This document shows, piece after piece, positions 6,833 through 22,101 of a stretch of 64,000 nucleotides of DNA. The DNA is from Citricoccus muralis (GTDB lineage: Bacteria; Actinomycetota; Actinomycetes; Actinomycetales; Micrococcaceae): the NCBI RefSeq assembly GCF_029637705.1, contig NZ_CP121252.1, positions 2,046,001-2,110,000 of the forward strand, written 5' to 3'. Both the position numbers and the translations under genes were made by a program. The stretch's first letter is position 1. Each line of letters begins with the position of its first letter. Under the pieces are notes generated by a model, which was not told the origin of the DNA, ran no database searches, and saw nothing but the letters and a program-made list of their open reading frames with translations.

Positions 6833-7860
6833 GGGGTGACTCCCTGGTGGGCCAGGCCGGCGTTCTCCGCCAGGCCGAGGGCAATGTTCATGGACTGGAC
6901 GGCACCACCGGCGGTGCCCTTGGTGAGATTGTCAATCGCAGCGGAGACGATGACGCGCCCAGCGTGAGCATCCACCGCGAGCTGCAGCACCGCGTGGTTG
7001 GACCCCAGCACGGACTTCGTAGCCGGCCACTGTCCCTCCGGCAGCAGGTGCACGAACTCCTCGTCGGCGTAGGCGTCACTGTAGGCCTGACGCACCTGGG
7101 CCTCGGTGACACCGGGACGCAGCTTGGCGGTGGCGGTGGTGAGAATGCCGCGGGCCATCGGCGCCAGCGTGGGGGTGAAGGAGACCTGGACCGACTCTCC
7201 GGCGGCCCAGCTCAGCCCCTGCTCAATCTCGGGGGTGTGCCGGTGGCCGCCGCCGACACCGTAGGGGCTCATCCCACCCATAACCTCGGAGCCGAGCAGA
7301 TGCGGCTTCGTCGATTTGCCCGCGCCGGAGGTGCCGGAGGCTGCCACGATCACCACGTCTTCGGGCTGCAGCAGCCCGGCGGAGTAGCCGGGGCTCAGTG
7401 CCAGCAACGACGACGTCGGGTAGCAGCCGGGTACGGCGATGCGCCGGGCCCCGCGCAGGTGCTCGCGCCGGCCGGGCAGCTCGGGCAGGCCGTAGGGCCA
7501 GTGCCCGGCGTGCTCTGAACCGTAGAACTGCTGCCAGGCGTCGGCGGATTCGAGACGGTGATCGGCTCCGGCGTCAATCACCAGGGTGTCGGCCGGAAGC
7601 TGGGCAGCAATCTCCGCGCTGGCCCCGTGCGGCAAGGCCAGGAAGACGACGTCATGCCCGGCCAATACCTCGGCCGTGGTGTCTTCGAGCACGCGGTCGG
7701 CCAGGGAGTGCAAATGCGGCTGCAGGCTCCCCAGCCGCTGTCCTGCATTGGAATGGGCGGTGATCGATCCGATGGTCACCTCGGGATGCGTGCTGAGCAG
7801 GCGCAGCACCTCTCCCCCGGCGTAGCCACTGGCTCCTGAAACGGCGACGGTAAGACTCAT
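6829..7860 (-). CDS. argC: N-acetyl-gamma-glutamyl-phosphate reductase
   Basis: A 343-residue NADPH-dependent reductase that converts N-acetylglutamyl phosphate to the semialdehyde. The N-terminal Rossmann motif is [15 protein letters not shown], and the catalytic cysteine sits in [14 protein letters not shown]. The [16 protein letters not shown] histidine region is typical. It is the first gene of the argCJBDFR operon, about 40 bases below a promoter that carries two putative ArgR boxes. Start and length agree with the family. Confidence 0.97.
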
Positions 7861-7870
7861 AGGTCAAGGA

Positions 7871-7916
7871 TACAGAAATTATGCAGTCCGGCCAATATCA
7901 CACAAATAATTATGCA
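7871..7916 (-). promoter_or_regulatory. argC promoter with two putative ArgR boxes
   Basis: On the plus strand the boxes read TACAGAAATTATGCA (7871-7885) and CAAATAATTATGCA (7903-7916). They share AATTATGCA with the box before argG, and their ends are 31 bases apart (about three helical turns). A sigma-70-like promoter for argC is visible on the minus strand: -35 TTGTGT (7900-7905), 16-base spacer, -10 CATAAT (7878-7883). The -10 lies inside the gene-proximal box, so a bound repressor would block RNA polymerase. The assignment to ArgR is inferred. Confidence 0.7.
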
Positions 7917-7954
7917 CGGTGTCGTGGGCTCGGTGGACGGGATACGGTGGAACC

Positions 7955-8950
7955 ATGACCGAGAGCGATTCACAGATCCCCGCCCAGCACCGTGCCATCG
8001 TCGTCGAGCAGACCGGCGCCCCTGAAGCCCTGACCTGGACCACCGTGGACACCCCCACCCCCGGGGCCGGCGAGGTGCTGATCCGCACCGCCGCTGCTGG
8101 GCTCAATTTCATCGAGACGTACCAGCGTTCCGGCGTGTACCCGATGACGACGCCGTTCACCCCGGGCACCGAGGCTTCCGGCGAGGTCGTCGCGGTGGGC
8201 GAGAACGTTACCACGGTATCGGTGGGTGACCGGGTGGCCACCGCGGCTGGACGCGCCACCTACGCCGAACACTTCGTGGCGCCGGCCGAGCAGCTGCTTC
8301 GGGTTCCCGAGACCATGGATCTGGCCGAGGCTGCGGCGTTGCCGCTGCAGGGGATGACCTCCCATTACCTGTGCCGTTCCACCTACCCGGTGTCGGCCTC
8401 GGACACGGTGCTGCTGCACGCCGGGGCCGGCGGCGTGGGCCTGGTACTCACCCAGCTGTGCGTCAGCCTTGGCGCCACCGTGTACACCACGGCATCGACG
8501 GAAGAGAAGAAGGAACTGTCTCTCCAGGCGGGCGCCACCGAGGTATTTGACTACGACGATGTCGCCACCCGCGTCCGCGAGCGCACGGGCGGCAAGGGCG
8601 TGGACGTGGTCTTCGACGGTGTTGGCAAAGACACGTTCGAAGCATCGCTGTCCGCGCTGCGCCCCCGCGGGATGATGGTGCTCTTCGGTGGCTCCTCGGG
8701 ACAGGTGCCGCCCTTTGACCTGCAGCGGCTCAATGCCTTGGGCTCTCTCTTTGTCACTCGGCCCTCCCTGGCGGCCTACACCGCCACGGGTGAAGAAACC
8801 GCGTGGCGGGGCGAGGAACTGTTTGCCGCGCTCCAGGAGGGCACCCTGAACCTGCGCATTGGCGACCGTGTGCCCCTGGCGGAGGCCGCTCGGGCCCACA
8901 CCGCACTGGAGGGGCGCCAGACGACCGGCAAGGTGATTCTCACCGTCTGA
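7955..8950 (+). CDS. NADPH:quinone reductase (zinc-free MDR family)
   Basis: A 331-residue cytoplasmic oxidoreductase of the quinone oxidoreductase branch of the medium-chain dehydrogenase superfamily. The GroES-like N-terminal domain includes GLNFIETYQRSGVYP and PGTEASGEVVAVGENV. The Rossmann nucleotide-binding domain has LHAGAGGVGLVLTQL, and GKGVDVVFDGVGKDTF follows. The cysteine ligands of zinc alcohol dehydrogenases are absent, as expected for quinone reductases. ATG 7955 is preferred to one 12 codons upstream, since the longer form lacks family similarity. It is divergent from argC. The physiological substrate is not known. Confidence 0.9.
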   Translation: MTESDSQIPAQHRAIVVEQTGAPEALTWTTVDTPTPGAGEVLIRTAAAGLNFIETYQRSGVYPMTTPFTPGTEASGEVVAVGENVTTVSVGDRVATAAGRATYAEHFVAPAEQLLRVPETMDLAEAAALPLQGMTSHYLCRSTYPVSASDTVLLHAGAGGVGLVLTQLCVSLGATVYTTASTEEKKELSLQAGATEVFDYDDVATRVRERTGGKGVDVVFDGVGKDTFEASLSALRPRGMMVLFGGSSGQVPPFDLQRLNALGSLFVTRPSLAAYTATGEETAWRGEELFAALQEGTLNLRIGDRVPLAEAARAHTALEGRQTTGKVILTV

Positions 8951-8963
8951 GTGCGCGACCGGG

Positions 8964-9119
8964 CTAGATGAACAGCCCGATCAGAGTCGAGCACAGCAGG
9001 GCCCCGATCACGATCAGCGCCAACACGCTAACCACTCGCCGACCCCGAGTCCGATCACGGCGTTCTTCGGCGGTGAACTCGGTGGGATTCAGTTCCCATG
9101 GTTGCCGGTCCATGCTCAT
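8964..9119 (-). CDS. small single-pass membrane protein, 51 residues
   Basis: A short open frame encoding MSMDRQPWELNPTEF followed by a charged stretch (AEERRDRTRGRR, about 17-28) and one strong hydrophobic helix (VVSVLALIVIGALLCSTLIGLF, about 29-50) that ends at the stop codon. The arrangement suggests an N-in, tail-anchored membrane peptide. The ribosome-binding site is weak, and the second ATG (codon 3) is an alternative start. It converges with the quinone reductase with a 13-base gap. No family is recognised; the clean charged-then-hydrophobic design favours a real gene. Confidence 0.6.
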   Translation of the reverse strand: MSMDRQPWELNPTEFTAEERRDRTRGRRVVSVLALIVIGALLCSTLIGLFI

Positions 9120-9258
9120 CGCGGGGCACTCACCCTTCGTCGTCGTGCTGGTGCTCGCTACTTCATGCTACCGGGGAGGACACCTGGGGTTCACCTTGCT
9201 GGCGTGGGATCGCTAGGCGCGATCCCCAGTGGATCCCCGAAGGAAGGCCTCCGTCACC

Positions 9259-10020
9259 GTGAGCACGTATCTGCCGTAGCTGCCCGCCGCTCAGCGGGCT
9301 CCTGCGGTACGGACCTTGATCGATATTCTGAGCGAAACCGCCCGAGAACACCCGGAGGCCCCGGCCCTGGACGACGGCGACTCCGTTCTGTCCTATGCGG
9401 AGCTACTCGACGAGGTCAAGACGCTGGGCCGCGACCTGTACGCCGCCGGCATCGGTGCCGGAGACCGGGTGGGCGTGCGCGGCTGGTGTTTTCCTAGGCG
9501 AAGGTCGCTGCGATTCTGACGTCCGGGGAGATCCAGGTCAGCGATTCCCGTCCCCGTCCCTTCCCGGAGCCGCGATTGCCCGGGCCCAACGACGACGCCT
9601 GGATGATCTTCACCTCCAGCTCGACCGGCACCCCGAGGGGTGTGGCCGTGACCCACCGCAACACCGCAGCTTTTGTGGATGCCGAGGCGCGGATTTTCCT
9701 GCAGCCGGCCCCCTTGGGTCCCGGCGACCTGGTGCTCGCCGGGCTATCGGTGACTTTTGACGCCTCCCGTGAGGAAATGTGGCTGGCCTGGCGATCGGGC
9801 GCCTGCCTGCTGCCCGCCCCGCGCTCCCTGGTTCGCTCCGGCATGGACCTTGGCCCCTGGCTGGTGTCCCGCTCGATCAATGTGGTCTCCACCGTGCCGA
9901 CCCTGGTCGCACTGTGGCCGCCGGAAGCCCTGGAAAACGTGCGCCCATTGATTTTCGGCGGTGAGGCCTGCCCGTCCGATCTGGCGGCACGGTTGGCCGA
10001 GGACGAACGCCTGCGTCGTC
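9259..10020 (+). pseudogene. decayed adenylation domain of a Pls/PosA-family non-ribosomal peptide synthetase
   Basis: Remnant of the 5' end of a large peptide synthetase. From a GTG at 9259, with GAAGGAAGG before it, the frame reads VSTYLP and then an in-frame amber codon (9277-9279). The same frame continues into a typical adenylation-domain start (LIDILSETAREHPE, SYAELLDEV, GAGDRVGVR). Near 9478-9497 a deletion of roughly 45 codons shifts the frame. The next part resumes with DDAWMIFTSSSTGTPRGVAV (core motif A3), ending in STVPTLVALWPPEAL and FGGEACPSDLAARL. Similarity stops near 10010, just before the end of pheT. The wording of the motifs resembles epsilon-poly-lysine synthetase (Pls) more than ordinary NRPS domains. 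At least three disabling lesions make it non-functional. Confidence 0.85.
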
Positions 10021-10045
10021 GCCCAGCCAGATGGTGGTCACCGGG

Positions 10046-12604
10046 TCAGCGCTGGACGGCACCGAACCGCTCGACGGCTGCCGCAGTAGCCGCGGCACGG
10101 GCCTCCGAGGCCTCGTCAGCGGTCAGGGTGCGGTCCGCGGCCCGGAAACGCAAACTGAAGGCGAGCGATTTCTTGCCTTCGTCCACGCCGGGTCCTTGGT
10201 ATACGTCGAACAGTGCGATCTCCTCGAGCAATTCGCCAGCCGCTGTGGCCAGAGTCTGCTGCACCTGGGCGGCCGCGATGTCGGCATCCACCACCAGCGC
10301 CACGTCCTGCGTGGTCGCGGGGAAAGTGGACAGCGGCTCGGCCTCGACCACATCCGGTGCGGTCGCGGCCAGAGCGTCCAGATCCAGTTCGACGGCGACA
10401 GTGCGGGCCGGCAGGTCGGAATTTTCCAGAAGCTTCGGCAACAGCTCCCCGGCGTAGCCGATCACGGTGCCGTCGGCCAACTGCAGGGCGGCGGTGCGAC
10501 CCGGGTGGAACGCTTGATGGGCGCCCTGCGCCACGGTGAGGGTGGCACCGAGCAGATCGGCAATGTCCAGGGCCGTGGATACGGCGTCCTGCCAGTCCCA
10601 GGGGCGCGGATCGTGGCCCGGCCCCGGGGCGGAGTCATGTCCGATAAACACGGCGGCCACGCGTTGCGGCTGGTTCGGGATGCCGGCGTTGAGCTCGGCC
10701 AGCACCTCGGGTGCAGGCAGTGCGCCCAGCGGCGGGATCTCGGAAGAACCCAGTCGCTCACCGGGCAGGAACACCTGACCCAGCTCGTACAGGGCCAAGT
10801 CGCGGAAGCCACGGCCGTGGTTGCGGCGTGCGGTTTCTAGCAGTCCGGGCAGCAGCGAGGTGCGCAGGTAACCAAACTCGGCGGAGATCGGGTTGGCCAG
10901 GTGCACGGCCGGCACGTCTGCCCCGGCGTCAGGGGTACCAAACTGCCGGTTCTGGGCCTCAGAGACGAACGGGTAGGCCAACGTCTCCACCAAGCCAGCA
11001 TCGGCCAGCCCCTGGGCCACCCGGCGGCGCTGGGCCTGGGTGCGGGTGAGCCCGCGGCCCGGCGGCGGCACCGGAACGGTAGCCGGAATGATGTCGTACC
11101 CGACGAGTCGGGCGATCTCCTCGATGAGGTCTTCCGGGATGGCCAGGTCGTGCCGCCAGGTCGGCGGGGTCACGTTGATTGCGTCTTCGCCCGACGAGGT
11201 CTGGGTGCGCTCGACGGTGGCCCCAATCTGTTCCAGCACGGAAACGATCTGCTCGGCCGGGTAGTCCACGCCTATCAGCCTGGACGGCGCCTGCAACGGC
11301 AAGGTGATGGCCACCGGTTCCGGGCGCTGTCCGACGTCGGTGATGCCGGGGGCTGCGGTACCGCCGGCCAGTTCCACCAGCAACTGCACGGCCCGCTCGG
11401 CGGCCTTATCGGCCACCTCCCAGTCCACGCCGCGCTCATTGCGCTTGGACGCTTCCGAAGGCAGCTTGTGGCGACGCCGGGTCCGGCCGATGGAGACCGG
11501 GTCGAAGTGGGCGGATTCGATGACGATCGTGGTGGTCTCATCCCCCACCTCGGTGTCCGCGCCGCCCATGACGCCGGCCAGGCCGATGGGACCGCGATCG
11601 TCGGTGATCAGCAGATCCTCGGTGTTCAGGCTGCGCTGCTTATCGTCAAGGGTCACCAAGGTTTCGCCCTGCAGGGCCCGGCGCACCACGATCTCGCCGG
11701 AGAGCTTGTCGCCGTCGTAGAAGTGCAGTGGCTGACCGAGTTCCCACATCACGTAGTTGGAGATGTCCACGGGCAAGGAGATGGAGCGCATCCCGGCCAG
11801 GCGCAAACGCTGTGCCATCCAGGCCGGGGTGGGACGGGTGGTGTCGATGCCGGTGACGGTACGGGTGACGAACCGGTCGCAGCCGGGCACCCCGTAGATG
11901 GGGGCAGCGTCATCAAGGCGCACCGGATAGCCCTCGCCGTCGGCTGCCGGGGGCTGAACCTGCCCGGCAGGGTCGGTGAAGGTCCCGCCGGTGGCGTGGC
12001 TGTATTCACGAGCCACCCCGCGGATGGAGAACGCGTAGGAGCGGTCTGCCGTCACGTTGATCTCGGCGGCCTCGTCGTCCAGGTGCAGCAGGGAGTGCAC
12101 ATCGGTGCCGACCTCGGGGTCCAGGCCCCATTCGGAGAGGACGATGATGCCGTCGTGGACATCCCCTAAGCCCAGCTCGCGGGCCGAGGCGATCATCCCG
12201 GCAGAAACATGACCGTAGGTCTTGCGCGGGGAGATCCGGAAGTCTCCGGGCAGCACGGCCCCGGGCAGGGTGACGATCACTTTGTCGCCCACGGTGAAGT
12301 TGTGCGCGCCGCACACCACGCCCTGCACGCCGGAGGGGTCGATGCCGTCGCCGGTGAGGGTCTGCTCGGTGCCTTCGGGCACCACACGCACCTGGCACCA
12401 GTTGATAGTCTTGCCGTTCTTCTGAGGCTCGGGCGTCATCTCGAGCACTTCGCCGACGACGATGGGCCCGGTCAACTCGTCGGAAGGGCGGTGCACGTCC
12501 TCTTCTTCAAAACCAACGCGCACCAGATCGGCCATGACCGACTCAGCGGTGGCATCAGTGGCGACGGGGACGAATTCACCCAGCCAAGACAGCGGGATAC
12601 GCAT
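10046..12604 (-). CDS. pheT: phenylalanine-tRNA ligase beta subunit
   Basis: An 852-residue subunit of the (alpha-beta)2 enzyme that charges tRNA-Phe. It starts MRIPLSWLGEFVPV. An OB-fold tRNA-binding domain follows (about 40-150, ending near VHDGIIVLSEW), then the B3/B4 editing domain, the B5 domain (about 410-490, including ERGVDWEVADKAAERAVQLL), and a C-terminal ferredoxin-like anticodon-binding domain (LSTFPATTQDVALVVD to ERFGAVQR). It begins three bases after pheS, so the two are cotranscribed. Its 3' end abuts the peptide-synthetase remnant. Confidence 0.97.
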   Translation of the reverse strand: MRIPLSWLGEFVPVATDATAESVMADLVRVGFEEEDVHRPSDELTGPIVVGEVLEMTPEPQKNGKTINWCQVRVVPEGTEQTLTGDGIDPSGVQGVVCGAHNFTVGDKVIVTLPGAVLPGDFRISPRKTYGHVSAGMIASARELGLGDVHDGIIVLSEWGLDPEVGTDVHSLLHLDDEAAEINVTADRSYAFSIRGVAREYSHATGGTFTDPAGQVQPPAADGEGYPVRLDDAAPIYGVPGCDRFVTRTVTGIDTTRPTPAWMAQRLRLAGMRSISLPVDISNYVMWELGQPLHFYDGDKLSGEIVVRRALQGETLVTLDDKQRSLNTEDLLITDDRGPIGLAGVMGGADTEVGDETTTIVIESAHFDPVSIGRTRRRHKLPSEASKRNERGVDWEVADKAAERAVQLLVELAGGTAAPGITDVGQRPEPVAITLPLQAPSRLIGVDYPAEQIVSVLEQIGATVERTQTSSGEDAINVTPPTWRHDLAIPEDLIEEIARLVGYDIIPATVPVPPPGRGLTRTQAQRRRVAQGLADAGLVETLAYPFVSEAQNRQFGTPDAGADVPAVHLANPISAEFGYLRTSLLPGLLETARRNHGRGFRDLALYELGQVFLPGERLGSSEIPPLGALPAPEVLAELNAGIPNQPQRVAAVFIGHDSAPGPGHDPRPWDWQDAVSTALDIADLLGATLTVAQGAHQAFHPGRTAALQLADGTVIGYAGELLPKLLENSDLPARTVAVELDLDALAATAPDVVEAEPLSTFPATTQDVALVVDADIAAAQVQQTLATAAGELLEEIALFDVYQGPGVDEGKKSLAFSLRFRAADRTLTADEASEARAAATAAAVERFGAVQR

Positions 12605-12607
12605 GAA

Positions 12608-13693
12608 TCAAATCTCCATTCCGAAGTGCTGGGAGAAGCGGATATCGCCTTCGATCATGTCGCGCATATCGGACACGTCGTTGCGGAACATCAGGGTGCG
12701 TTCGATGCCCATACCGAACGCGAAACCGGAAAACTCCTCCGGGTCCAGTCCGGCGGCACGCAGCACGTTGGGGTGCACCATGCCGCAGCCGCCCCATTCG
12801 ATCCACTGGGGACCGCCTTTGGCGCCGGGGTGCCAGATGTCCATCTCGGCGGAGGGCTCGGTGAACGGGAAGAAATTCGGGCGGAGACGGATCTCGGCTT
12901 CGGGGCCGAACATCTGCCGGGCGAAGTACTCTAGGGTGCCGCGCAGATCCGCCATCGTCAGCCCACGGTCAATAGCAAGCCCCTCGAATTGGTGGAACAC
13001 CGGAGTGTGGGTGGCGTCCAGCTCATCGGTGCGGAAGGTGCGTCCCGGGCACAGCACGTACACCGGTGCGCCGCGTTCGATCATGGAGCGGACCTGCACC
13101 GGGGAGGTGTGAGTGCGCAACAGCAGGTGCGCTTCGGCGGGCTCCACGAAGAACGTGTCCTGCATTTCGCGGGCCGGATGATCGGGCAGGAAGTTCAGCG
13201 CGTCGAAGTTGAACCACTCGCTCTCCAGCTCGGGCCCCTCGGCAATCTCCCACCCCATGCCGATGAAAATGTCCGAGACTCGCTCCTGCAGCACCGACAG
13301 CGGGTGACGAGCCCCCACGCGACGACGACGCACAGCCGTGGTGACGTCTACAGTCTCTTCGACCAGCATGCGCGCGGCGTATTCTTCTTCCAACACCTGG
13401 GTGCGGGCCGCCAGCGCCTGGTTGATCCGGCCGCGGGCCTGGCCCATGGTCTTACCAGCGGTTGCCTTGTCTTCCTTGGCCAGAGAACCGATGGCGCGGT
13501 TGGCCAAGGTCAGCGGAGCCTTATCACCGGTGTGCGCCAGGCGAGCCGTCTTCAGCTCGTCCAGGGTGGTGGCTGCGTCGAATGCGTCCAGGGCCACCTG
13601 CACGCTGGCCTGGACGGCCTCGGCATCGGTCGGCGAAGGGATCTCGACGCGATCGGGACTCTGTGGGTCCGTCACGGAGGACTGGTCGGACAT
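12608..13693 (-). CDS. pheS: phenylalanine-tRNA ligase alpha subunit
   Basis: A 361-residue catalytic subunit. An N-terminal coiled-coil arm (about 25-110) contacts tRNA-Phe. The class II synthetase core follows: motif 2 region around THTSPVQVRSMIE and CPGRTFRTDE, and motif 3 GFAFGMGIERTLM near the C-terminus. The start MSDQSSVTD was chosen over one four codons upstream; both are possible. No T-box or leader peptide is evident in the 117 bases upstream, which are shared with a divergent plus-strand gene. Confidence 0.97.
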   Translation of the reverse strand: MSDQSSVTDPQSPDRVEIPSPTDAEAVQASVQVALDAFDAATTLDELKTARLAHTGDKAPLTLANRAIGSLAKEDKATAGKTMGQARGRINQALAARTQVLEEEYAARMLVEETVDVTTAVRRRRVGARHPLSVLQERVSDIFIGMGWEIAEGPELESEWFNFDALNFLPDHPAREMQDTFFVEPAEAHLLLRTHTSPVQVRSMIERGAPVYVLCPGRTFRTDELDATHTPVFHQFEGLAIDRGLTMADLRGTLEYFARQMFGPEAEIRLRPNFFPFTEPSAEMDIWHPGAKGGPQWIEWGGCGMVHPNVLRAAGLDPEEFSGFAFGMGIERTLMFRNDVSDMRDMIEGDIRFSQHFGMEI

Positions 13694-13810
13694 TTCGAAG
13701 CACACGCCTTTGATACTCGTACGGCTGGTTCAGGGGAACGAAGCACAGTCTATCGACTCCGCCCCGAGCCACACGACACGTGTTCCGACGTGTCCGGTAG
13801 GGTTCACCTC

Positions 13811-14233
13811 ATGTCGACGGTGCGGACCTGGTGGAATCTCCTCAACGGCTCCACCGTGCTCGGCCTGCTGATCGCCGTAGCCAGCAGAACCACCTTGCGT
13901 CCGGGCCCGCGAGGCACGCTGCTGGCTCAGGGATACACCTGGGGCTTCCCGAACGGCGGAGCGATCACCATCGGCAACGTGATCCTGGTCCGCCCCGGCG
14001 TACGCTGCACCGAGGCGCTACTACGCCACGAGGACCGTCACGTCAGCCAGTACGCGTTCTGCTTAGGGCTCCCCTTCCTCATCCTCTACGCGGTCAGTGT
14101 TGCGGTGTCTCTGGCAGTGTGCGGGGATACCGCGAGCGCGAACCCCTTCGAACGTGCCGCGGGCCTGGCCGACGGCGGATATCGAGCCCATCCTCCCAGG
14201 TGGCGGCGGACACACCGTAGAATCAGCACATGA
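13811..14233 (+). CDS. small membrane protein with an HEXXH motif
   Basis: A 140-residue protein with a hydrophobic N-terminal segment (about 13-25), the sequence LLRHEDRHVSQYAFCLGLP with a zinc-protease-type HEXXH at residues 73-77, and a second hydrophobic helix (about 82-103). The C-terminus includes NPFERAAGLADGGYR. HEXXH followed by VSQY recalls the DUF4157 type of putative metallopeptidase, but the protein is too short to be sure it is an active enzyme. Its stop codon overlaps the start of the response regulator (ATGA), so it is probably cotranscribed with the two-component system. Confidence 0.75.
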   Translation: MSTVRTWWNLLNGSTVLGLLIAVASRTTLRPGPRGTLLAQGYTWGFPNGGAITIGNVILVRPGVRCTEALLRHEDRHVSQYAFCLGLPFLILYAVSVAVSLAVCGDTASANPFERAAGLADGGYRAHPPRWRRTHRRIST

Positions 14234-14922
14234 TCCGAGTTCTGCTGGTCGAAGACGATACGCGCCTGGCCAGCGCCCTGGCCGATGTGCTGGAGAGTCA
14301 CGGTTTCGCCGTCACCTCCGTGAGCACCGGCGCCGCCGCGCTGTCCGCAGACACCGCCGACCTCGTGCTGCTGGATCTGGGGCTGCCCGATATGGACGGG
14401 CTCGAAGTGCTCTCGGGTCTGCGCGCTCGCTACGACATGCGCGATGCCGGGATCATCGTGCTCACCGCCCGCGGCCAGACGGTGGATCGTATCCAGGGGT
14501 TGCGGGCCGGAGCAGATGATTACCTGTCTAAACCCGTGAGCATCGCCGAGCTCACCGCACGCATCGAAGCCGTGGCACGTCGCATGACCCGGTCCCGACC
14601 CACCACGTTGCGTGCGGGCGTACTCGAGCTGGACCTGGGCGCTAGCGAGGCCCGGGTCTCGGGCACCGCACTGAGCCTCACCGTCAAGGAGTTCGAGCTG
14701 CTGGCGGCACTGATGGAAGACCACGGGCGCACCGTGCACCGCGACCGGCTGCTGCTCCGCGTCTGGCGCACCGTCTATCCCAGCACCGCGCGTTCGCTCG
14801 AAGTCCACATCAGCGCCTTGCGCTCGAAACTCGCGGCCCTCGCCGACGACGACATGGTGCTCATCGAGACGGTGCGCGGCGTTGGATACCGGCTGATGGC
14901 CACCCCATGCACCGCCGGCTAA
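14230..14922 (+). CDS. OmpR/PhoB-family response regulator
   Basis: A 230-residue DNA-binding regulator. The receiver domain (1-118) has the acidic pair Asp9/Asp10, phospho-acceptor Asp49 in LVLLDLGLPDMDG, Thr79 and Lys101 (SKPVS). The winged-helix domain (about 130-225) ends with ARSLEVHISALRSKL and ETVRGVGYRL. OmpR-type regulators bind tandem repeats of about 11 bases, which is what lies at 17384-17412 in front of the neighbouring TAXI genes. It overlaps the kinase gene by 16 bases. The TctD-like role is inferred from context. Confidence 0.95.
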   Translation: MIRVLLVEDDTRLASALADVLESHGFAVTSVSTGAAALSADTADLVLLDLGLPDMDGLEVLSGLRARYDMRDAGIIVLTARGQTVDRIQGLRAGADDYLSKPVSIAELTARIEAVARRMTRSRPTTLRAGVLELDLGASEARVSGTALSLTVKEFELLAALMEDHGRTVHRDRLLLRVWRTVYPSTARSLEVHISALRSKLAALADDDMVLIETVRGVGYRLMATPCTAG

Positions 14923-16349
14923 CCGCCATCTACTTCACCCTGCTCGTGGTCGCCACCCTCGGGCTGGCTGTACCGCTGAGTGTCGCCGTCGTCGATCGCG
15001 CCACCCACACCCTGGTGATGGACCGCACAGCCGATGCCGCCCGGTTCGCCTCGCTCTCCGAGAACGCCATTCTCACCGGCCGGGTGGACTCCACCGAGGC
15101 CGAGCTGAGCATCTACGAACAGCTTTATGGGATCCGCGCAGTCGTGCTCGACGCCGACGCCCGGCTCGTGGCTGCTTCCTCTCCTGACGTGAGACTGCAG
15201 ACGCTCCAGGAAGCCGCCGGATTCGCCCCTGAGACTGCGGGATTACCCGGAGAAATTGTGATGACGGCACTGGCCGGGTTGCGCCAGGAATCCGAGCCGC
15301 GGATCTGGCCGTGGTCCGTCCGCCAGCTGCTCATCGCCGAGCCGATCAACACCGGTGATGAGACCGTCGGCGTGGTGGTCACCGCCTCGCCCACCGGTGA
15401 CCTCCACCGTTCCATCCTGTTGCAGTGGCTCATGATTGCCACGGGCGTGGCGCTGGCCCTGGTGCTAGGAGTATGGGCGGCACGCCCGCTCAGCCAGTGG
15501 GTGATGCGCCCGGTGGCACGGCTGGCCGATGCCGCCCAGGACATCAGCCGCGGCCGGTTGGATGCGCGCGTCTCCGAGCTGGACGGCCCCGGCGAGCTCA
15601 AGCACCTCGCCCACGCTTTCAACCAGATGAGCGCCACCATCACCGAGATCCTGGACCGTCAGCGTCACTTCGTCGCTTACGCCAGTCATCAAATCCGCAA
15701 CCCGCTGGCCGGTGTGCGACTGCGCGTCGAAGCCCTCGGCGCCGCGCTTCCTCCGGAACGACTGCCCGCTCACCGCGCCGCGCTGGAAGAACTCGACCGC
15801 CTCACCCGCACCTGTGAAGGCCTGCTGAATCTCGCCCGCGCCGCCGACGTCGACCCTGAGAAAGTGCTGGTCCCCCTGCACGCCGTCGCCCTGCAGCGGC
15901 AGCGGGCCTGGGAACCGGTCGCCGCCCGCCGTGAGGCCCGCGTAGAGGTCGAGGTACCGGAGGACCTGGCCGTGCACCTCGTCGAGCACACCCTGGATCA
16001 GACGCTGGATGTGCTCATCGACAACGCGCTGAAATTCGGAGGCGACGGTGTCACCGTGACCTTGCAGGCGCGTCGGCTCGCGGAGGGCACCGTGGAATTG
16101 ATCGTCGACGACGACGGGCCGGGCATCCCCACCGAACTACTCGAGCAAGCCTTGGTGCCCTTCTGGCGCAACGGCACCGCCCGAAATGCCGCTGGTCTCG
16201 ACGTCGCTGGTGGGGCCGGACTCGGACTGTCCATCGTCGTCACCCTCCTGGAGCTCGACGAGGGCACTCTCACTTTGGAGACGCGATCCCCGCACGGGCT
16301 CCGCGCGGTGGTCCGGCTACCCGCCGCCACGGCCGCCCTGGATCACTGA
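14907..16349 (+). CDS. membrane sensor histidine kinase (TctE/QseC-like)
   Basis: A 480-residue kinase paired with the regulator just upstream. Transmembrane helix 1 covers about residues 5-27. An extracytoplasmic sensor region (about 28-167) follows, then helix 2 (about 168-190) and a HAMP linker. The HisKA box has phospho-acceptor His261 in YASHQIRNPLAGV, a variant of the usual SHELRTPL. The HATPase domain has DNALKFGG (N box), DDDGPGIP (G1) and GGAGLGLSIV (G2). It converges on a TAXI solute-binding protein gene one base away, so the ligand may be what that transporter carries. That link is inference. Confidence 0.94.
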   Translation: MHRRLTAIYFTLLVVATLGLAVPLSVAVVDRATHTLVMDRTADAARFASLSENAILTGRVDSTEAELSIYEQLYGIRAVVLDADARLVAASSPDVRLQTLQEAAGFAPETAGLPGEIVMTALAGLRQESEPRIWPWSVRQLLIAEPINTGDETVGVVVTASPTGDLHRSILLQWLMIATGVALALVLGVWAARPLSQWVMRPVARLADAAQDISRGRLDARVSELDGPGELKHLAHAFNQMSATITEILDRQRHFVAYASHQIRNPLAGVRLRVEALGAALPPERLPAHRAALEELDRLTRTCEGLLNLARAADVDPEKVLVPLHAVALQRQRAWEPVAARREARVEVEVPEDLAVHLVEHTLDQTLDVLIDNALKFGGDGVTVTLQARRLAEGTVELIVDDDGPGIPTELLEQALVPFWRNGTARNAAGLDVAGGAGLGLSIVVTLLELDEGTLTLETRSPHGLRAVVRLPAATAALDH

Positions 16350-16350
16350 T

Positions 16351-17373
16351 TCAGTTCTCCAAGGCAGAACGATGCGCTACTTTGGCCCGTTCGTAGTAGT
16401 TCACCGCGCCCTCGTGCAGTGGCACCGGTAGCGTCCCGATCGCCGTACGTTCACTGAGCTGCCGGATCCCGGGATGCACCTGCACCAAATCCGCGCGGGA
16501 ATCGAACAGCGTCTCAGTCAGCTGCTCCACCGTTTTGGTGCCCAAATCCTCACGCACCACCAGCAGACTGGAGATTCCCACCGATCGCACCCCGGGCACC
16601 CCGGGGTAGGTGTCCACCGGGATCGGCACCTCCTCGAAGTGCGCCCCGTGTCGTTCCGTCAGCGGGGCCGCCCATTCGGAAAGATCAATCAATCGAACCG
16701 ACGTCCTTTCGGCCAGCTCCGTCACCGCTTGGGTCGGTACCCCGGCCGACCAGAAGAACGCGTCCACCCGCCCGTGTTCCAAGGCATGCACGGACTCTGT
16801 CAGGCTCATCGACACCGGCTGCACCGCGTCCGTCCCGGCCTCGGCGTCCAGCCCGGCGATCTCCAGAAACCGGTGGGCCAAAAATTCGGTGCCCGAGCCC
16901 GCCGCGCCCACCGAGAGCGTCCCGCCGGCGAGATCGGTGAGTTGCTCCACCGGACTGTCTTCGAGCACCACCAGGTGGGTGTGGTTGTCATAGAGTCTGG
17001 CCACCGTGCGAATCCCCAGCGGCTCCTCGAAGGGCCCCTCCCCGCTGACGGCCAGGGCGGTAATATCGGCGAGCGCGAAGCCCACATCTGCCTCACCGCT
17101 CGCCAGCATCTCCAGGTTCACCACCGACGCCGCCGTCTGCCGCGCCGTCACCTGTGCATCAGTGCCCTCGGTCGCATGCTGTAGCGCCTCCCCCAGCGAG
17201 TGATACACCCCGCCGGGCAATCCCGAGACCAACGTGAGCTGTTCGGGTGCGGCGCCACCACGTTCGTGCACGGTCCACCAGACACCACCACCGGCCAGCG
17301 CCACCACCGCGGCCAGGGAAACCACCATCCCGGCACGCACGCGTCGCCGCGGAGGGGCTGGCTGTTCCGTCAT
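16351..17373 (-). CDS. TAXI-family TRAP solute-binding protein (second copy, membrane-anchored)
   Basis: A 340-residue extracytoplasmic binding protein of the TRAP-associated TAXI family. It has an N-terminal arginine-rich cytoplasmic tip and one uncleaved-looking helix (about 15-35), with no lipobox, so it is probably tethered. The family pattern SGLPGGVYHSLGEAL, GEADVGFALADI and HPGIRQLSE is visible. It differs clearly from the lipoprotein copy at 17532. It lies back-to-tail against the histidine kinase and is divergent from the TRAP operon. A sensory role, presenting ligand to the kinase, is an alternative to transport. The start ATG is preceded by GAGG, which lies inside the 11-bp repeat region. 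Confidence 0.88.
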   Translation of the reverse strand: MTEQPAPPRRRVRAGMVVSLAAVVALAGGGVWWTVHERGGAAPEQLTLVSGLPGGVYHSLGEALQHATEGTDAQVTARQTAASVVNLEMLASGEADVGFALADITALAVSGEGPFEEPLGIRTVARLYDNHTHLVVLEDSPVEQLTDLAGGTLSVGAAGSGTEFLAHRFLEIAGLDAEAGTDAVQPVSMSLTESVHALEHGRVDAFFWSAGVPTQAVTELAERTSVRLIDLSEWAAPLTERHGAHFEEVPIPVDTYPGVPGVRSVGISSLLVVREDLGTKTVEQLTETLFDSRADLVQVHPGIRQLSERTAIGTLPVPLHEGAVNYYERAKVAHRSALEN

Positions 17374-17383
17374 CGTCGTTCTA

Positions 17384-17412
17384 CCTCAAGCCTTCCTCAA
17401 GTCTTCCTCAAG
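17384..17412. promoter_or_regulatory. three 11-bp direct repeats, putative response-regulator operator
   Basis: CCTCAAG occurs at 17384, 17395 and 17406, exactly 11 bases apart, each followed by a CT-rich tetramer (CCTT, TCTT, CTTT). One repeat per helical turn is the usual binding layout of OmpR-family regulators. The array starts 11 bases before the minus-strand TAXI gene and overlaps its ribosome-binding site, and it is about 120 bases before the plus-strand TAXI gene. Binding by the regulator at 14230-14922 is inferred. Confidence 0.65.
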
Positions 17413-17436
17413 CTTTCTCTCGGGACATGACTTCAG

Positions 17437-17483
17437 TGTGACACAGCTCATAGCGTGAAAGAGGCGACGTGACGTATCTCACG
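17437..17483. promoter_or_regulatory. two CRP-like palindromes in the TAXI-TRAP control region
   Basis: TGTGA-N6-TCATA lies at 17437-17452 and CGTGA-N6-TCACG at 17468-17483. Both match the TGTGA-N6-TCACA pattern of CRP/FNR-family regulators; the second has perfect arms. They start 31 bases apart, so they face the same side of the helix, and the second is about 48 bases before the TAXI lipoprotein start. Catabolite-type control of the transporter is inferred; no crp gene is in the window. Confidence 0.55.
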
Positions 17484-17531
17484 GTCTGCCGCTTCGACAG
17501 GATCACTCACCACCGAATCACAGGAGTCCTC

Positions 17532-18569
17532 ATGTCTGCCACACGACGCACCACCGCCACCCTTGCCCTGGCGGCCACGGTCGGATTGATTGTCGCCGGC
17601 TGCAGCCAGCCCGCCGAATCAGGAGGAGGCGGCGACGGCGAGGAGCAGGACCGCGTTAGCACCATGTCCATCGTCACTGGCGGCACAGCCGGGGTGTACT
17701 ATCCCATCGGCGGCGCGCTCTCCGGCATCATCGACGACCATGTGGAGGGCACCTCGGCCTCCGTGGAAGCCACCGGCGCCTCTGTGGAGAACATCCGGCT
17801 CATCGCCTCCGGCTCCGCCGACATCGCCGTCACCCAGGGCGATGCCGCTGACCAGGCGTACAACGGCACCGGTGACTTCGACGGCGAAGAGCCCATCGAG
17901 ACCAAAGCCATCGCAGTGCTGTATCCGAACGTTTATCACACCGTCACTCTGGCCAGCATTCAGAATAGGCTCGGGCTCGAGTGCTTCTCCGATATTGAGG
18001 GCCACCGATATTCAGTGGGCGATGTGGGGTCCGGCAACGAAGCCACCACCAACCAGGTCTTCGAATCCCTCGGCCTCGACGTCACCTCCGACATCACCCG
18101 CAGCCAGTTGGGATATGCCGAAACCACCAACGCCTTGACCAGCGGCGGCCTGGATGCCGGCTCTTGGGTGGTTGGCGAGGGGCACGGCGGCATCAACGAA
18201 CTAGCCGCCACCGATGATGTTGCCCTGGTTCCGATGTGTGAAGACGAGATCACCGCCATCACCGAAGGCGACGGCGGCTACACGGCACACACGATCCCCG
18301 GTGGCACCTACTCCGGGGTCGACGAGGACGTCGAAACCATCGCCGTATGGAACGTGCTGGTCGTGCCCGCCGACTTCAACGAAGAACAGGCCTACGAACT
18401 CACCGAGGCCATCTTCGACAATGTCGACGCCATCACCGATGTCTACGCCCCGGCCGCGGATTACCTGACCTTCGACAACGTGGAAAACGCTCCCGTGCCT
18501 TTCCACCCCGGTGCCGTCCGCTACTTCCAGGACAACGACGTCGAGGTCCCCGAGGACCTGCAGGGTTAA
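17532..18569 (+). CDS. TAXI-family TRAP solute-binding lipoprotein
   Basis: A 345-residue binding protein with a signal peptide and lipobox VAGC (Cys24), so it is anchored outside the membrane. The TAXI signatures are present: SIVTGGTAGVYYPIGGALS, VEATGASVENIRLIASGSADIAVTQGDAA in pieces, and DVGSGNEATTNQVF. It is the first gene of an operon with a DUF1850 protein and the fused TRAP permease, so it is the delivery protein of that transporter. TAXI systems carry organic acids such as glutamate-like or C4 compounds; the substrate here cannot be read. ATG 17532 has CAGGAG seven bases upstream. Confidence 0.95.
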   Translation: MSATRRTTATLALAATVGLIVAGCSQPAESGGGGDGEEQDRVSTMSIVTGGTAGVYYPIGGALSGIIDDHVEGTSASVEATGASVENIRLIASGSADIAVTQGDAADQAYNGTGDFDGEEPIETKAIAVLYPNVYHTVTLASIQNRLGLECFSDIEGHRYSVGDVGSGNEATTNQVFESLGLDVTSDITRSQLGYAETTNALTSGGLDAGSWVVGEGHGGINELAATDDVALVPMCEDEITAITEGDGGYTAHTIPGGTYSGVDEDVETIAVWNVLVVPADFNEEQAYELTEAIFDNVDAITDVYAPAADYLTFDNVENAPVPFHPGAVRYFQDNDVEVPEDLQG

Positions 18570-18582
18570 GGACGCCACCACC

Positions 18583-19149
18583 GTGAGCACCCCGCGTTCA
18601 CAGCCGCCGGCTCGTCGATCGCGTCGCGTGATTGGCGGGCTGGTGGCGGCGCTACTGGTCACGGCAATCGGCTTCGGTCTCCTGGTCCCCCTCTGGCCGG
18701 CGGTCACCGTGGATCACGATGAGGATCGGCTGGCCGCTTGGCGCACCGAGGCCTTCACCCTCAGCTACATCCATTCCATCGACGGGCTACCGATCGAAGA
18801 GGACCTGCGCGTGACTGAGGGTGAGCTGGTGGTCGAACGTACCCGACTGAAGCAATTCGGTGCCGGCATGGGCCATATTGACGGCGAAGGTCAGGGCCGC
18901 GCCGACGGCGACTGGTGGGTGGTCGATGACCTGGAGCGTGACATCGGCAGCCAGATGCACCTGCGCGCCGGAGCCACCCGCATCGATCACCGCATTACAT
19001 CAGCCGAACACGAACTACGACTCTCAGTGTGCCTGCCCGGCGAACGCATCACCATTAGCGCTTCCCGGGTCTCCACACTCACCCTGTTCACTACGCCCGA
19101 TGACCCCGCATGCGCCGGGGACACGTACCAGAATGAGGAAGATTCATGA
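18583..19149 (+). CDS. DUF1850 protein of the TAXI-TRAP operon
   Basis: A 188-residue protein with one N-terminal transmembrane helix (about 16-37) and a compact extracytoplasmic domain. The pattern AFTLSYIHSIDGLPIEEDLRV and RLKQFGAGM is the DUF1850 signature, a family found almost only beside TAXI-type TRAP permeases, where it may be an accessory subunit. The GTG start at 18583 is preceded by AAGGA at a rather long spacing. The gene starts 13 bases after the binding protein and overlaps the permease by four bases (ATGA). Confidence 0.88.
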   Translation: MSTPRSQPPARRSRRVIGGLVAALLVTAIGFGLLVPLWPAVTVDHDEDRLAAWRTEAFTLSYIHSIDGLPIEEDLRVTEGELVVERTRLKQFGAGMGHIDGEGQGRADGDWWVVDDLERDIGSQMHLRAGATRIDHRITSAEHELRLSVCLPGERITISASRVSTLTLFTTPDDPACAGDTYQNEEDS

Positions 19150-21284
19150 GCCAATCAGCGGTGGAAGAAGCCGCCGAGCGCCACGGCGCTCAGCTGCTCC
19201 CCGAAGAACTTCGACGGATGAACACCGGGGTCGATCAGGATGACGACTCCGAGGAAACCGATTCCGACACGCCCCTGTGGCATCGCCTCGCCGAACAGCG
19301 AGTGGGCACCGGCGGATTCCAGAAGCTGCTGGGTTGGATCATTCTGGCCCTGGCATTGGGCCTTGGCGGATTCCAGATCTACATCGGTGTGACATACAGC
19401 TTGGATGCCCGCCAGCAGCGGCTCATCCACCTGCTCTTTGTCCTGACCCTGATTTTCCTCACCGTGCCCGCGTTCAAGAACAAGTTCGGGCGCTCCGTCC
19501 CAATGCTCCTGGTCGATCTCGGGCTGATCGCCGCGGCCGTGGTGGTCTCCGTGTACCCGATCGTCAACGCCGCGGAACTCGCTCGCCGCGCCGGCGCCTA
19601 CGAGACCACGGACTGGGTACTCGGACTCGTGATGACCGTGCTGCTGTTGGAAGCCACCCGACGCACCGTGGGCTGGTTTATGTCCGTGCTGGTGCTGTTC
19701 TTCATGTTCTATGCCTGGGCCGGCCCCTGGTTCCCTGGAGATTTCGGCCACCGTGGCGCGACCATCGAGCGCCTTTCCAGCTACGTGTATCTCGGCAACG
19801 ACGGCATTCTCGGCTTGACCTTGGGCGTGGTGGTGACCTTCGTGTTCATTTTCGTGCTCTTTGGTGCGGTGCTGCAAAAAACCGGAGGTGGTAACTTCTT
19901 CATCGGTTTGGCCTTCTGCCTCACCGGCCGCTCCCCCGGCGGTCCCGCCAAGGGTGCGGTGGTTGGCTCGGCCATGATGGGTTCCATCTCCGGCACCGCC
20001 TTGGGAAACGTAGCCACCACCGGCCCCTTCACCATTCCGATGATGAAGAAAGTCGGTTACAAGAAGGAAGAGGCCGCGGGTGTGGAAGCAGCTGCCTCCA
20101 CCGGCGGACAGATTCTGCCGCCCATCATGGGTGCCGGTGCCTTCCTCATCGCCGAGCGCACCGGCATCCCCTACGCGGATATTGTGCTGGTGTCGATTAT
20201 CCCGGCGCTGATGTACTTCGGCACCGTTTACCTCTTCGTCGACATCAAGGCGCGCAAGCGTGGCATGGCGGGTATGACCAAAGAACAGCTCCCGGTGCTC
20301 AAAGAAGTCATGAAGGGCGGATGGCACTTCCTGGCTCCGCTCGTGCTGCTCATCGTGTTGCTGCTGCAGTACGTGCCTCCGGGCCGCGCGGGTCTTTACG
20401 CCACCGGCGCTCTCTTCATCGTGGCCATGCTGCGCGGCATCAGCCGGCTGAGTCTGAAAGACATGGGTGAGGTGTTCGTCATCGCTGCACGTAATACCCT
20501 GCCCGTCTCCGCGGCCTGCGCCATCGCCGGCATCATCGTTGGCGTGGTTGGCCTCACCGGCCTGGGCCTCGTGATCTCGGATGTGCTGGTGAGCGCCTTC
20601 GCCGGTAGCCTGCTGCTCACCCTGATCATGGTCGCCCTGGCGTCACTGTTGCTCGGCGTCGGTCTGCCGGTGACTGCGTCCTATGTCGTGCTGATCATCC
20701 TCGCCGGACCTGCCCTGCAGGAACTCGGCTTGGCCGTGATCGTCACGCACCTGATCGTCTACTGGTACAGCCAGGATTCCAATGTCACCCCACCGGTGGC
20801 GCTGGCAGCGTTCGTGGCCGCCGGCATCGCGAACTCCTCGCCCATGAAATCAGCATTCCATGCGTGGATTTTCGCCAAGGGGCTCTACTTCATCCCGCTC
20901 ATGTTCGCCTATTCGGCACTACTGATGACCGGGCCACCCTCCGAAGTGGTCATCGCGACCATCACCGGCTGTATCTCGCTGGTCGCCGTGGCGATGGCAA
21001 TCGAAGGCTATCTGGTACGAAAGGTGCCCGGATGGCAGCGGATCGTCCTGGCCATCTCCGGGTTCATGGTGATGACCGCTCCCGAGTGGACCGGATGGAC
21101 AGAGTCCCTGTTCGGCGCTCATGTCGGATCCCCCGTGTTCGTATGGGCAGGCACCGCGGTGACCTGTGTGTTCGTCGCGTTGCAGCTGATTCAGCACAAG
21201 CGCTTCGGTCCGCAGATTATTGAGCCGGTTTCCCCGAAGAACGAGGCAACCGCATCGGCAGAGGCGGCTCGGCAGCCCGCGTAG
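19146..21284 (+). CDS. TRAP transporter fused permease (DctQM type, TAXI system)
   Basis: A 712-residue inner-membrane protein joining the small (4-helix, DctQ-like, about 60-200) and large (12-helix, DctM-like, about 210-690) permease subunits, as is usual for TAXI systems. A hydrophilic acidic N-terminus precedes helix 1. The DctM core motifs GSAMMGSISGTALGNVATTGPFTIPMM (in pieces) and ASTGGQILPPIMGAGAFLIAE are clear. It uses an ion gradient rather than ATP and depends on the binding protein encoded at 17532. It ends the operon and converges on pcp. Confidence 0.95.
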   Translation: MSQSAVEEAAERHGAQLLPEELRRMNTGVDQDDDSEETDSDTPLWHRLAEQRVGTGGFQKLLGWIILALALGLGGFQIYIGVTYSLDARQQRLIHLLFVLTLIFLTVPAFKNKFGRSVPMLLVDLGLIAAAVVVSVYPIVNAAELARRAGAYETTDWVLGLVMTVLLLEATRRTVGWFMSVLVLFFMFYAWAGPWFPGDFGHRGATIERLSSYVYLGNDGILGLTLGVVVTFVFIFVLFGAVLQKTGGGNFFIGLAFCLTGRSPGGPAKGAVVGSAMMGSISGTALGNVATTGPFTIPMMKKVGYKKEEAAGVEAAASTGGQILPPIMGAGAFLIAERTGIPYADIVLVSIIPALMYFGTVYLFVDIKARKRGMAGMTKEQLPVLKEVMKGGWHFLAPLVLLIVLLLQYVPPGRAGLYATGALFIVAMLRGISRLSLKDMGEVFVIAARNTLPVSAACAIAGIIVGVVGLTGLGLVISDVLVSAFAGSLLLTLIMVALASLLLGVGLPVTASYVVLIILAGPALQELGLAVIVTHLIVYWYSQDSNVTPPVALAAFVAAGIANSSPMKSAFHAWIFAKGLYFIPLMFAYSALLMTGPPSEVVIATITGCISLVAVAMAIEGYLVRKVPGWQRIVLAISGFMVMTAPEWTGWTESLFGAHVGSPVFVWAGTAVTCVFVALQLIQHKRFGPQIIEPVSPKNEATASAEAARQPA

Positions 21285-21307
21285 TGCTTCAGCAGTGACC
21301 AACCCGG

Positions 21308-22000
21308 TCAGTGCAATGTTCCGAGGCCGGCCCCCTGAGTGGTGTCGGCCTCGGGCGCGTCTGGGTCGCTAAGGTGCTTCAGAGTTTCCTCCACCACATG
21401 ACACACGCCAGCCACACTCTCCGCCAGGGGGATTCCCGGATAGACCGTGGAGACATCGGTGTCCCAGGGAACATGGACAAATCCAGCAGATTTCGGACTG
21501 TGCTCACCCCACGCGCCGATCTCGACTGCATGCATCAACGCGTAGAAAACGTGATTGCAGACGAAAGTCCCCGCGCTCAAAGAGAGCTCCACCGGCAGTT
21601 CCCCCGCCGCTGACACGATGCGACGAGCGGGCAGCGTGGCGAAGATTCCGTCGGGGCCACCAACGACAACCGGTGTCCCGTTGGGTTGACATCCGGCATT
21701 GTCTGAGATCCGCGCCTGCTGGAGATTGATTCCGACCTGCTCCACGCCGACTTGCGACCGTCCGGCCGCCAGCCCCAGACAAATTACAACTTCGGGTTCG
21801 TGGTGAGCGATGAGGTCGAACAATACCTCGTGCGAGGTGGCAAACTCACAGGGCAGCACAGCCGAGACCACCTGAACGCCTGACCCCAGCAAGGCACGGG
21901 CGGCCGCATCAGCAACGGTGGCTGACGGATTGTGCTCGTCATCGCCGAAGGGCTCGAATCCCGTCAGCAATACAGTCGGAGTTTCATGCGTGAAGCTCAT
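21308..22000 (-). CDS. pcp: pyroglutamyl-peptidase I
   Basis: A 230-residue cytosolic cysteine peptidase (family C15) that removes N-terminal pyroglutamate from peptides. The catalytic triad is visible: Glu87 in VEQVGIN, Cys148 in SAGTFVCNHVFYALMH and His176 in AGFVHVPWD. The N-terminal TGFEPFGDDEHNPS motif is diagnostic. ATG 22000 (MSFTHET) is chosen; ATG 22006 (MIMSFT) is equally possible and neither has a strong ribosome-binding site. The C-terminal 15 residues are unstructured and acidic. Confidence 0.93.
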   Translation of the reverse strand: MSFTHETPTVLLTGFEPFGDDEHNPSATVADAAARALLGSGVQVVSAVLPCEFATSHEVLFDLIAHHEPEVVICLGLAAGRSQVGVEQVGINLQQARISDNAGCQPNGTPVVVGGPDGIFATLPARRIVSAAGELPVELSLSAGTFVCNHVFYALMHAVEIGAWGEHSPKSAGFVHVPWDTDVSTVYPGIPLAESVAGVCHVVEETLKHLSDPDAPEADTTQGAGLGTLH

Positions 22001-22101
22001 GATCATCCATCGTAAATGCCTCGCCGTCAGAAGGGACACCCCTTCTATAGAACATCGAACACTTGCTTGCTTAATCCCAGAACAGGTGTTTCAATAGAAG
22101 C

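Follow-up and report, generated by a model that had tools for sequence, protein, structure and literature searches.

We analyzed a stretch of 64,000 nucleotides (the window) from the Citricoccus muralis genome (NZ_CP121252.1, positions 2,046,001 to 2,110,000; one contig of 3.13 Mb), in which a two-component system adjoins two TAXI-type solute-binding proteins, TAXI1 and TAXI2, and a TRAP transporter. Window genes were scored with Pfam and NCBIfam profiles (E ≤ 0.001). The gene order is a small HEXXH membrane protein, a response regulator (RR), a sensor histidine kinase (HK), TAXI1 on the minus strand, an intergenic region of 158 bp, TAXI2, a DUF1850 protein, and a fused TRAP permease. The RR (14230..14922, plus strand) is of the OmpR/PhoB type, with a receiver domain (PF00072) and a Trans_reg_C domain (PF00486), and overlaps by 16 nt the HK (14907..16349, plus strand), which has the Pfam domains HAMP, HisKA, and HATPase_c and one extracytoplasmic domain at residues ~30 to 172. 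TAXI1 (16351..17373) is convergent with the HK, with 1 bp between the genes, and divergent from TAXI2 (17532..18569, plus strand). Both proteins belong to the TIGR02122 family (234.8 bits for TAXI1 and 280.0 bits for TAXI2; cut-off, 84.35 bits) and are the sole TAXI proteins above that cut-off in the whole genome. Downstream of TAXI2 lie the DUF1850 gene (18583..19149, plus strand; PF08905, in a scan that began at an earlier in-frame start, 18511) and the DctQM-type permease gene (19146..21284, plus strand; TIGR02123, 620.9 bits; cut-off, 320.65). The TAXI2 set thus has the makeup of a TAXI-TRAP transporter: a TAXI protein beside a fused DctQM permease, with DUF1850. These coordinates and scores bear out an earlier note on this DNA, which had placed two TAXI proteins on either side of a control region ahead of DUF1850 and the fused permease.

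To place the two proteins among their relatives, we searched 396 genomes of the order with TAXI1 (E ≤ 1e-20) and obtained 90 places, spread over 73 genomes; the window itself accounts for 2. The other 88 places were taken with their flanks and annotated by phmmer, using window proteins and some relatives. Among 87 TAXI open reading frames (the window and an 88th, fused frame being left aside), a 1-kb neighborhood contained a kinase in 28 cases, a TRAP permease in 52, neither in 7, and both in none. A tree of 124 TAXI rows, built from the order loci and from loci in named genomes with one fragment (L118) dropped, split into 53 rows (51 kinase linked and 2 unlinked) and 71 rows (67 permease linked and 4 unlinked), with a Shimodaira-Hasegawa-like approximate likelihood ratio test (SH-aLRT) value of 94. 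When a phylum sample was added, in which the kinase may lie up to 3.3 kb from the TAXI gene, 158 rows less 4 fragments or very long branches and 21 near-copies left 133. In this second tree, 60 kinase-labeled and 2 unlinked rows formed one branch (SH-aLRT, 100) without a single permease-linked row, and the kinase or permease label changed 3 times, compared with a mean of 44.1 in shuffles. In both trees, kinase-linked labels were set by hand for L041 (a broken HK 2.5 kb away), L043 and L064 (contig ends), and L098 (the fused frame). TAXI1 falls in the kinase branch, a clade of 62 rows, and so does not belong to the TAXI-TRAP lineage; TAXI2 falls in the permease branch. The earlier note's proposal that the tethered copy may be a sensor and the lipoprotein the transport copy is supported by these positions.

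The kinase-linked lineage is largely independent of TRAP permeases. TRAP_fused permease matches above the cut-off were found in only 3 of the 32 order genomes with a kinase-clade TAXI (the C. muralis genome, G252, and G066) and were missing from the other 29, 7 of which have weaker DctM-type matches; this count covers the order genomes, without the Nocardiopsis-type islands and Streptomyces-like genomes described below. GltS, another known TAXI partner, occurs in 3 of the 32 and never at a kinase-TAXI locus. In L098 (G024:C16, minus strand, 6754 to 9633), one open frame joins kinase and TAXI. The frame may be a natural fusion, or a stop codon may have been lost, with an internal start ahead of a Tat-like signal. 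Because an internal start is possible and the genome is a single draft, we gave this locus little weight. Outside Actinomycetota, which we sampled through plasmids and a few contigs, we inspected 8 of 322 plasmid records with TAXI matches, and a TRAP permease was adjacent in all 8. In three of these (Marivivens, Gemmobacter, and Agrobacterium), a gene annotated as an ATP-binding protein or sensor histidine kinase follows the operon; the region after the operon carries no annotation in L217, L219, and L220. L221, L225, and L227 are alphaproteobacterial TAXI-TRAP-DUF1850 operons with a single TAXI gene, followed by a large gene annotated as an ATP-binding protein or sensor histidine kinase.

The arrangement seen in the window recurs elsewhere. 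A scan of named genomes gave 25 loci, and the order of RR, HK, convergent TAXI1, and divergent TAXI2-DUF1850-permease was also found in Nocardiopsis, Streptomonospora, and Kineosphaera, and in G252, where it is cut by a contig end. The earlier note had named a pair of binding proteins without a kinase as the pattern that would speak against a sensory role. Such a pattern was not seen among the 17 islands with a divergent TAXI pair (the window included): RR and HK are present in 15, and the other 2 (L043 and L064) end at a contig edge. The HK is split over several frames, 2.5 kb away, in L041 and over two frames in L061. In an alternative order, found in L068 and on a plasmid of Streptomyces sp. 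NBC_01207 (NZ_CP108555.1), a TAXI gene convergent with HK-RR is divergent from the permease and a second TAXI gene.

The transporter beside the RR-HK-TAXI module varies. Across 62 loci (the window excluded) and six transporter families, the neighbor was a TRAP permease in 17, a GluABCD-type ABC operon in 19, an MFS transporter in 13, an Nramp transporter in 3, an SDF transporter in 1, an amino acid permease in 1, and none of these in 8. In eight genomes of the phylum sample that we presume to be Streptomyces-like, from their likeness to S. rubellomurinus (L058), gluABCD is divergent from RR-HK and a TAXI gene without a lipobox converges on the kinase gene, at a distance of 3.1 kb in L175. The GluABCD-type operons carry their own SBP_bac_3 binding protein. 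The three loci with Nramp-family genes (L099, L111, and L125) present an unexpected partner for a carboxylate sensor. Near the MFS-linked module in L091, L093, L097, L098, and L102, there are also genes for isocitrate lyase and malate synthase, the families having been scanned in L097.

We next turned to the control region between the divergent TAXI genes. It contains three direct copies of CCTCAAG with an 11-bp period (17384..17412), a putative RR operator, and 11-bp repeat spacing is as expected for OmpR/PhoB-type regulators. All 17 islands have the pattern CTCA[AG]N6CTCA[AG] in the region that separates the divergent TAXI pair. In 50 kinase-clade loci (734 kb, the window excluded) there were 32 such sites, compared with 2.0 expected from three first-order Markov copies per locus, and 16 of the 32 fall in the 34 non-island loci. 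The same procedure gave 2 sites, compared with 7.0 expected, in 49 permease-only loci (709 kb). The repeat also lies between RR and gluA in all eight Streptomyces-like loci. Of 39 loci in which the repeat occurs at any position of the stretch, 37 have LEVH or VEVH in the RR recognition helix, as do 6 of the 22 loci that lack it; the helix of the window RR, SLEVHISALR, is common to relatives that have the repeat operator. Separately, in three loci of one genus (L071, L077, and L083), the motif stands at the junction of galE-like and small membrane protein genes. Genome-wide, the exact pattern CCTCAAGN4CCTCAAG was found only in the island, as two overlapping matches, and at one other place, ~115 bp upstream of a gene for a DASS transporter (TIGR00785, 228 bits; cut-off, 198.6). 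A role for this gene as a conserved regulon member was not confirmed: in a scan of 30 DASS loci for 34 places, 3 of them from the C. muralis genome and with the DNA upstream of the G252 orthologue lying off the contig, the motif was present in 1 locus, that of the C. muralis gene itself. Taken together, these results establish two TAXI lineages, linkage of one of them to a kinase, its independence of TRAP permeases in most of the genomes tested, and a repeat common to many of the kinase-linked loci.

The association was also examined from the side of the kinase. Relatives of the window kinase (E ≤ 1e-33) were found in 29 of the 396 order genomes, with TAXI adjacent in 24; in G252 and G149 the TAXI gene is on another contig. 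The best kinase match genome-wide in G562, G044, G389, and G085 is the TAXI-linked one, and in G562 it scores 240 bits and the next kinase 82, which marks the window kinase as a close relative of the gluABCD-linked Streptomyces-type kinase, as would be expected of a GluR-GluK system. With a Streptomyces TAXI-linked kinase as the query (E ≤ 1e-35), 44 of 296 phylum genomes had matches, and 12 of these are TAXI linked (C. muralis, the eight Streptomyces-like genomes, G595, G605, and G666). There was no TAXI gene nearby in G005 and 15 more of the remaining kinase genomes (L282 and L285 to L299), and most TAXI-less phylum kinases score far below the TAXI-linked ones of Streptomyces. In an AlphaFold2 model of the HK (predicted local distance difference test [pLDDT] score, 84), the extracytoplasmic domain consists of helices and four strands, a predicted architecture compatible with a PAS/Cache-like domain; in fold searches with the whole kinase, the matches listed were taken up by the catalytic core. 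There was no Pfam match in the HK (E ≤ 0.001) to PF08521, 2CSK_N, which we take to be the sensor domain of TctDE/BctDE-type kinases.

The ligand pocket can be compared with that of VcGluP, whose glutamate site is described as Y45, S75, Q93, E125, Y200, and M201, with affinity losses of 213-fold for Y45A and 990-fold for Q93A (PMC11574862). Among 63 kinase-linked TAXI rows, position 45 is Y in 58 and F in 5, and position 75 is S in all 63. Because these residues are retained, the pocket of the kinase-linked proteins is not decayed. At position 93, the kinase-linked rows have L (34), A (21), Q (4), T (3), or H (1), and 85 permease-linked rows have Q (45), L (23), M (9), V (7), or F (1). In the window, this position is Leu101 in TAXI1 and Gln in TAXI2, and therefore the pair may differ in ligand or affinity. 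The AlphaFold2 model of TAXI1 has a confident TAXI domain (pLDDT, 90). A pyroglutamyl peptidase gene (window 21308 to 22039, minus strand) converges on the TRAP permease gene. Because VcGluP binds pyroglutamate, like glutamine, at lower affinity than glutamate (PMC11574862), a link between this peptidase and the transported ligand is possible.

The mode of attachment to the membrane is less uniform. TAXI2 carries the lipobox VAGC, as the earlier note had it, and the N-terminal segment of TAXI1 is hydrophobic and has no Cys; this segment may stay as an anchor, in line with the tethering claimed in the same note, or, less likely in our view, be a signal cleaved after ALA. The absence of a lipobox was rejected as a general mark of the sensor copy, because 35 of the 63 kinase-linked rows match the lipobox pattern, compared with 80 of the 85 permease-linked rows (among which a lipobox-free N-terminal anchor is thus rare), and the pattern missed a Cys in at least 3 of the 28 negative kinase-linked rows (L054, L056, and L097). 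Ten Streptomyces-type rows (L058, L060, and L174 to L181) have a hydrophobic N terminus without a lipobox. Either a lipobox or an uncleaved hydrophobic N terminus would hold the TAXI protein to the membrane, where the receptor of a membrane kinase would have to be.

We consider it likely that TAXI1 serves as the ligand receptor of the kinase and that the RR controls the TAXI2-TRAP operon. In this model, TAXI1, a membrane-held TAXI solute-binding protein, would have been recruited as the receptor of the neighboring HK, and in its ligand-closed form it would touch the HK extracytoplasmic domain and alter HK activity. Once phosphorylated, the RR would bind the 11-bp direct repeats in the TAXI1-TAXI2 intergenic region and drive the TAXI2-DUF1850-permease operon, perhaps along with TAXI1 itself and the distant DASS carboxylate transporter, and TAXI2 would hand substrate to the permease. 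TAXI1 would thus probably act as the antenna of the kinase for a small carboxylic or amino acid and its sister TAXI2 as the transport protein. L-Glutamate or a carboxylate related to it is the probable ligand, and the two proteins need not match in affinity or ligand. More broadly, we lean toward the idea that a TAXI lineage in Actinomycetota left transport and became a portable receptor subunit of GluK-type kinases, the module being kept while the transporter was swapped among at least six families and the repeat operator was kept in many branches; the GluR-GluK system would then have three parts, with its receptor overlooked.

Several observations weigh against this proposal. The repeat is missing in 22 of the 61 loci with an identified RR, including all 13 MFS-linked loci, and thus the operator is not universal in the clade. 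With two mismatches allowed, the operator pattern gave 11 sites in the C. muralis genome, compared with 21 for a reversed control, and none of the DASS genes examined from the 13 other island genomes with matches showed the operator. Because the loci are related, the repeat and linkage counts are not independent and are inflated. Three of the 29 close-kinase genomes (G005, G026, and G299) have no TAXI match at E ≤ 1e-20, and the G026 kinase adjoins an SDF symporter instead. The kinase of G489, which belongs to another class, scores 211.0 bits to the Streptomyces kinase (211.4 for the window kinase), and no TAXI was found with it; given this and the other TAXI-less kinases, in most genomes, though not in every one, a TAXI accompanies this type of kinase. 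The Leu of TAXI1 at the VcGluP Gln93 position makes glutamate an unsafe guess for the ligand. Finally, biolayer interferometry has been reported to show that glutamate interacts with GluK itself (PMC9739842), and TAXI may therefore not be required.

These last points bear on the main rival explanation, namely, that the kinase senses its ligand through its own extracytoplasmic domain, as reported for GluK, and that TAXI1 is an accessory scavenger raising the local ligand concentration, or a brake. The reported glutamate-GluK interaction (PMC9739842) favors it, as do the close kinases without TAXI and the modeled ectodomain, whose order of helices and four strands would be compatible with a small ligand-binding domain. 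However, TAXI adjoins the kinase in 24 of 29 genomes, and the kinase clade of TAXI proteins is retained although 29 of its 32 genomes have no TRAP_fused permease above the cut-off, so we judge direct sensing to be unlikely. If TAXI1 were instead a second transport protein of the same TRAP permease, with another ligand or affinity and with the kinase adjacent by chance or coregulated, this would fit the shared island and common intergenic control region as well as the Leu for Gln exchange at the main affinity site, which suggests a different ligand. Yet the kinase-linked clade has no permease-linked member and persists without a TRAP_fused permease, and none of the 87 TAXI frames lies within 1 kb of both kinase and permease; we hold this explanation to be very improbable. 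Less credible still is a secondary kinase link, with the kinase-linked TAXI proteins working as binding proteins of a transporter other than TRAP, in the manner of TAXI-GltS (PMC12344293). The module does adjoin ABC, MFS, SDF, Nramp, or amino acid permeases, but the family of the neighboring transporter changes while kinase and TAXI remain, the GluABCD-type operons have a binding protein of their own, and GltS is rare and away from the kinase-TAXI loci.

The remaining features of the region touch this proposal less closely. The small HEXXH membrane protein (13811..14233, plus strand) matched no Pfam or NCBIfam model at E ≤ 0.001. Its frame overlaps the RR by 4 nt, so that the coupling of HEXXH, RR, and HK described in the earlier note holds at the level of gene overlap, but we rejected the HEXXH protein as a module component. 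A relative was found in 39 of 61 family genomes, C. muralis included, and the gene adjoins pheS in 9 of 10 loci checked (again including C. muralis) and an RR in C. muralis alone; it was therefore judged a bystander. Downstream of the repeats, the sequence TGTGA-N6-TCATA (17437..17452), an unscored motif read from the sequence, is presumably a CRP/GlxR-like site. No known RNA family scored above its gathering threshold in window 8000 to 30000, and promoter and terminator scans of window 13600 to 21600 gave no excess over shuffles. Farther upstream, a frame at window 9576 to 10457 (plus strand) with an adenylation-domain-like stretch (TSSSTGTPRGVAVTH) enters the antisense strand of pheT and is possibly a truncated synthetase gene.

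If the proposal is true, a TAXI lineage devoted to kinases would explain many "orphan" TAXI genes, and the automatic annotation of kinase-linked TAXI proteins as TRAP transporter subunits would need correcting. The glutamate signal of Streptomyces GluK-type systems would also become directly testable through the deletion of one gene. The HEXXH family, mostly pheS adjacent, merits a name of its own.

The S. coelicolor GluR-GluK system is among the closest systems described. GluK/R (SCO5779/78) is reported to respond to glutamate and to regulate gluABCD (SCO5774-77), and as in our loci, an OmpR-type RR and an HK stand beside a transporter operon, here a glutamate ABC operon (PMC9739842). This likeness rests on the published description of the gene layout. 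Loci L058, L060, and L174 to L181 show the GluR-GluK-gluABCD order, and they also share the repeat operator and carry a TAXI gene that converges on the kinase gene. In contrast, the window RR-HK pair is not beside gluABCD, and its target operon would be TAXI-TRAP. No TAXI protein is mentioned in the passages on GluR-GluK in that paper (PMC9739842). Going by gene numbers, SCO5780 would be the expected TAXI gene of the S. coelicolor system; it is not mentioned in the literature that we searched.

Among TAXI proteins, VcGluP (with VcGluQM) and TtGluBP are of the same family and share the Tyr45/Ser75 pocket positions, but they are transport proteins, and TAXI1 has no equivalent of Gln93. A membrane-anchored TAXI protein in a secondary transporter is reportedly the subject of work by Roden in 2023, to go by its title. 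TAXI-GltS of Bordetella pertussis resembles our case in that a TAXI protein occurs without a TRAP membrane component, but its partner is a symporter (PMC12344293). The words kinase, sensor, and two-component are absent from the text of PMC11574862 and from the main text of PMC12344293. Among the literature matches listed, no description of a TAXI protein as a kinase partner was found, and one may be in print beyond the literature searched.

Only ~10 characterized cases of binding proteins that activate sensor kinases are counted in one account (PMC9602780), and BctC-BctE is a precedent. In the BctC-BctDE/BctCBA system of B. pertussis (TTT family), the occupancy of a binding protein is described as being relayed to the sensor kinase in control of a tripartite-type transporter (PMC5812351, PMC9602780), much as we propose for TAXI1. 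Unlike TAXI1, BctC is itself the transport protein, of the TctC family, and the kinase-clade TAXI proteins persist in 29 of 32 order genomes with no TRAP_fused permease above the cut-off. A separate TAXI protein devoted to the kinase would be a new variant of binding-protein-dependent kinase sensing. Because the sensing protein, unlike in BctC-BctE, would be separate from the transport protein, signaling and transport need not compete for it.

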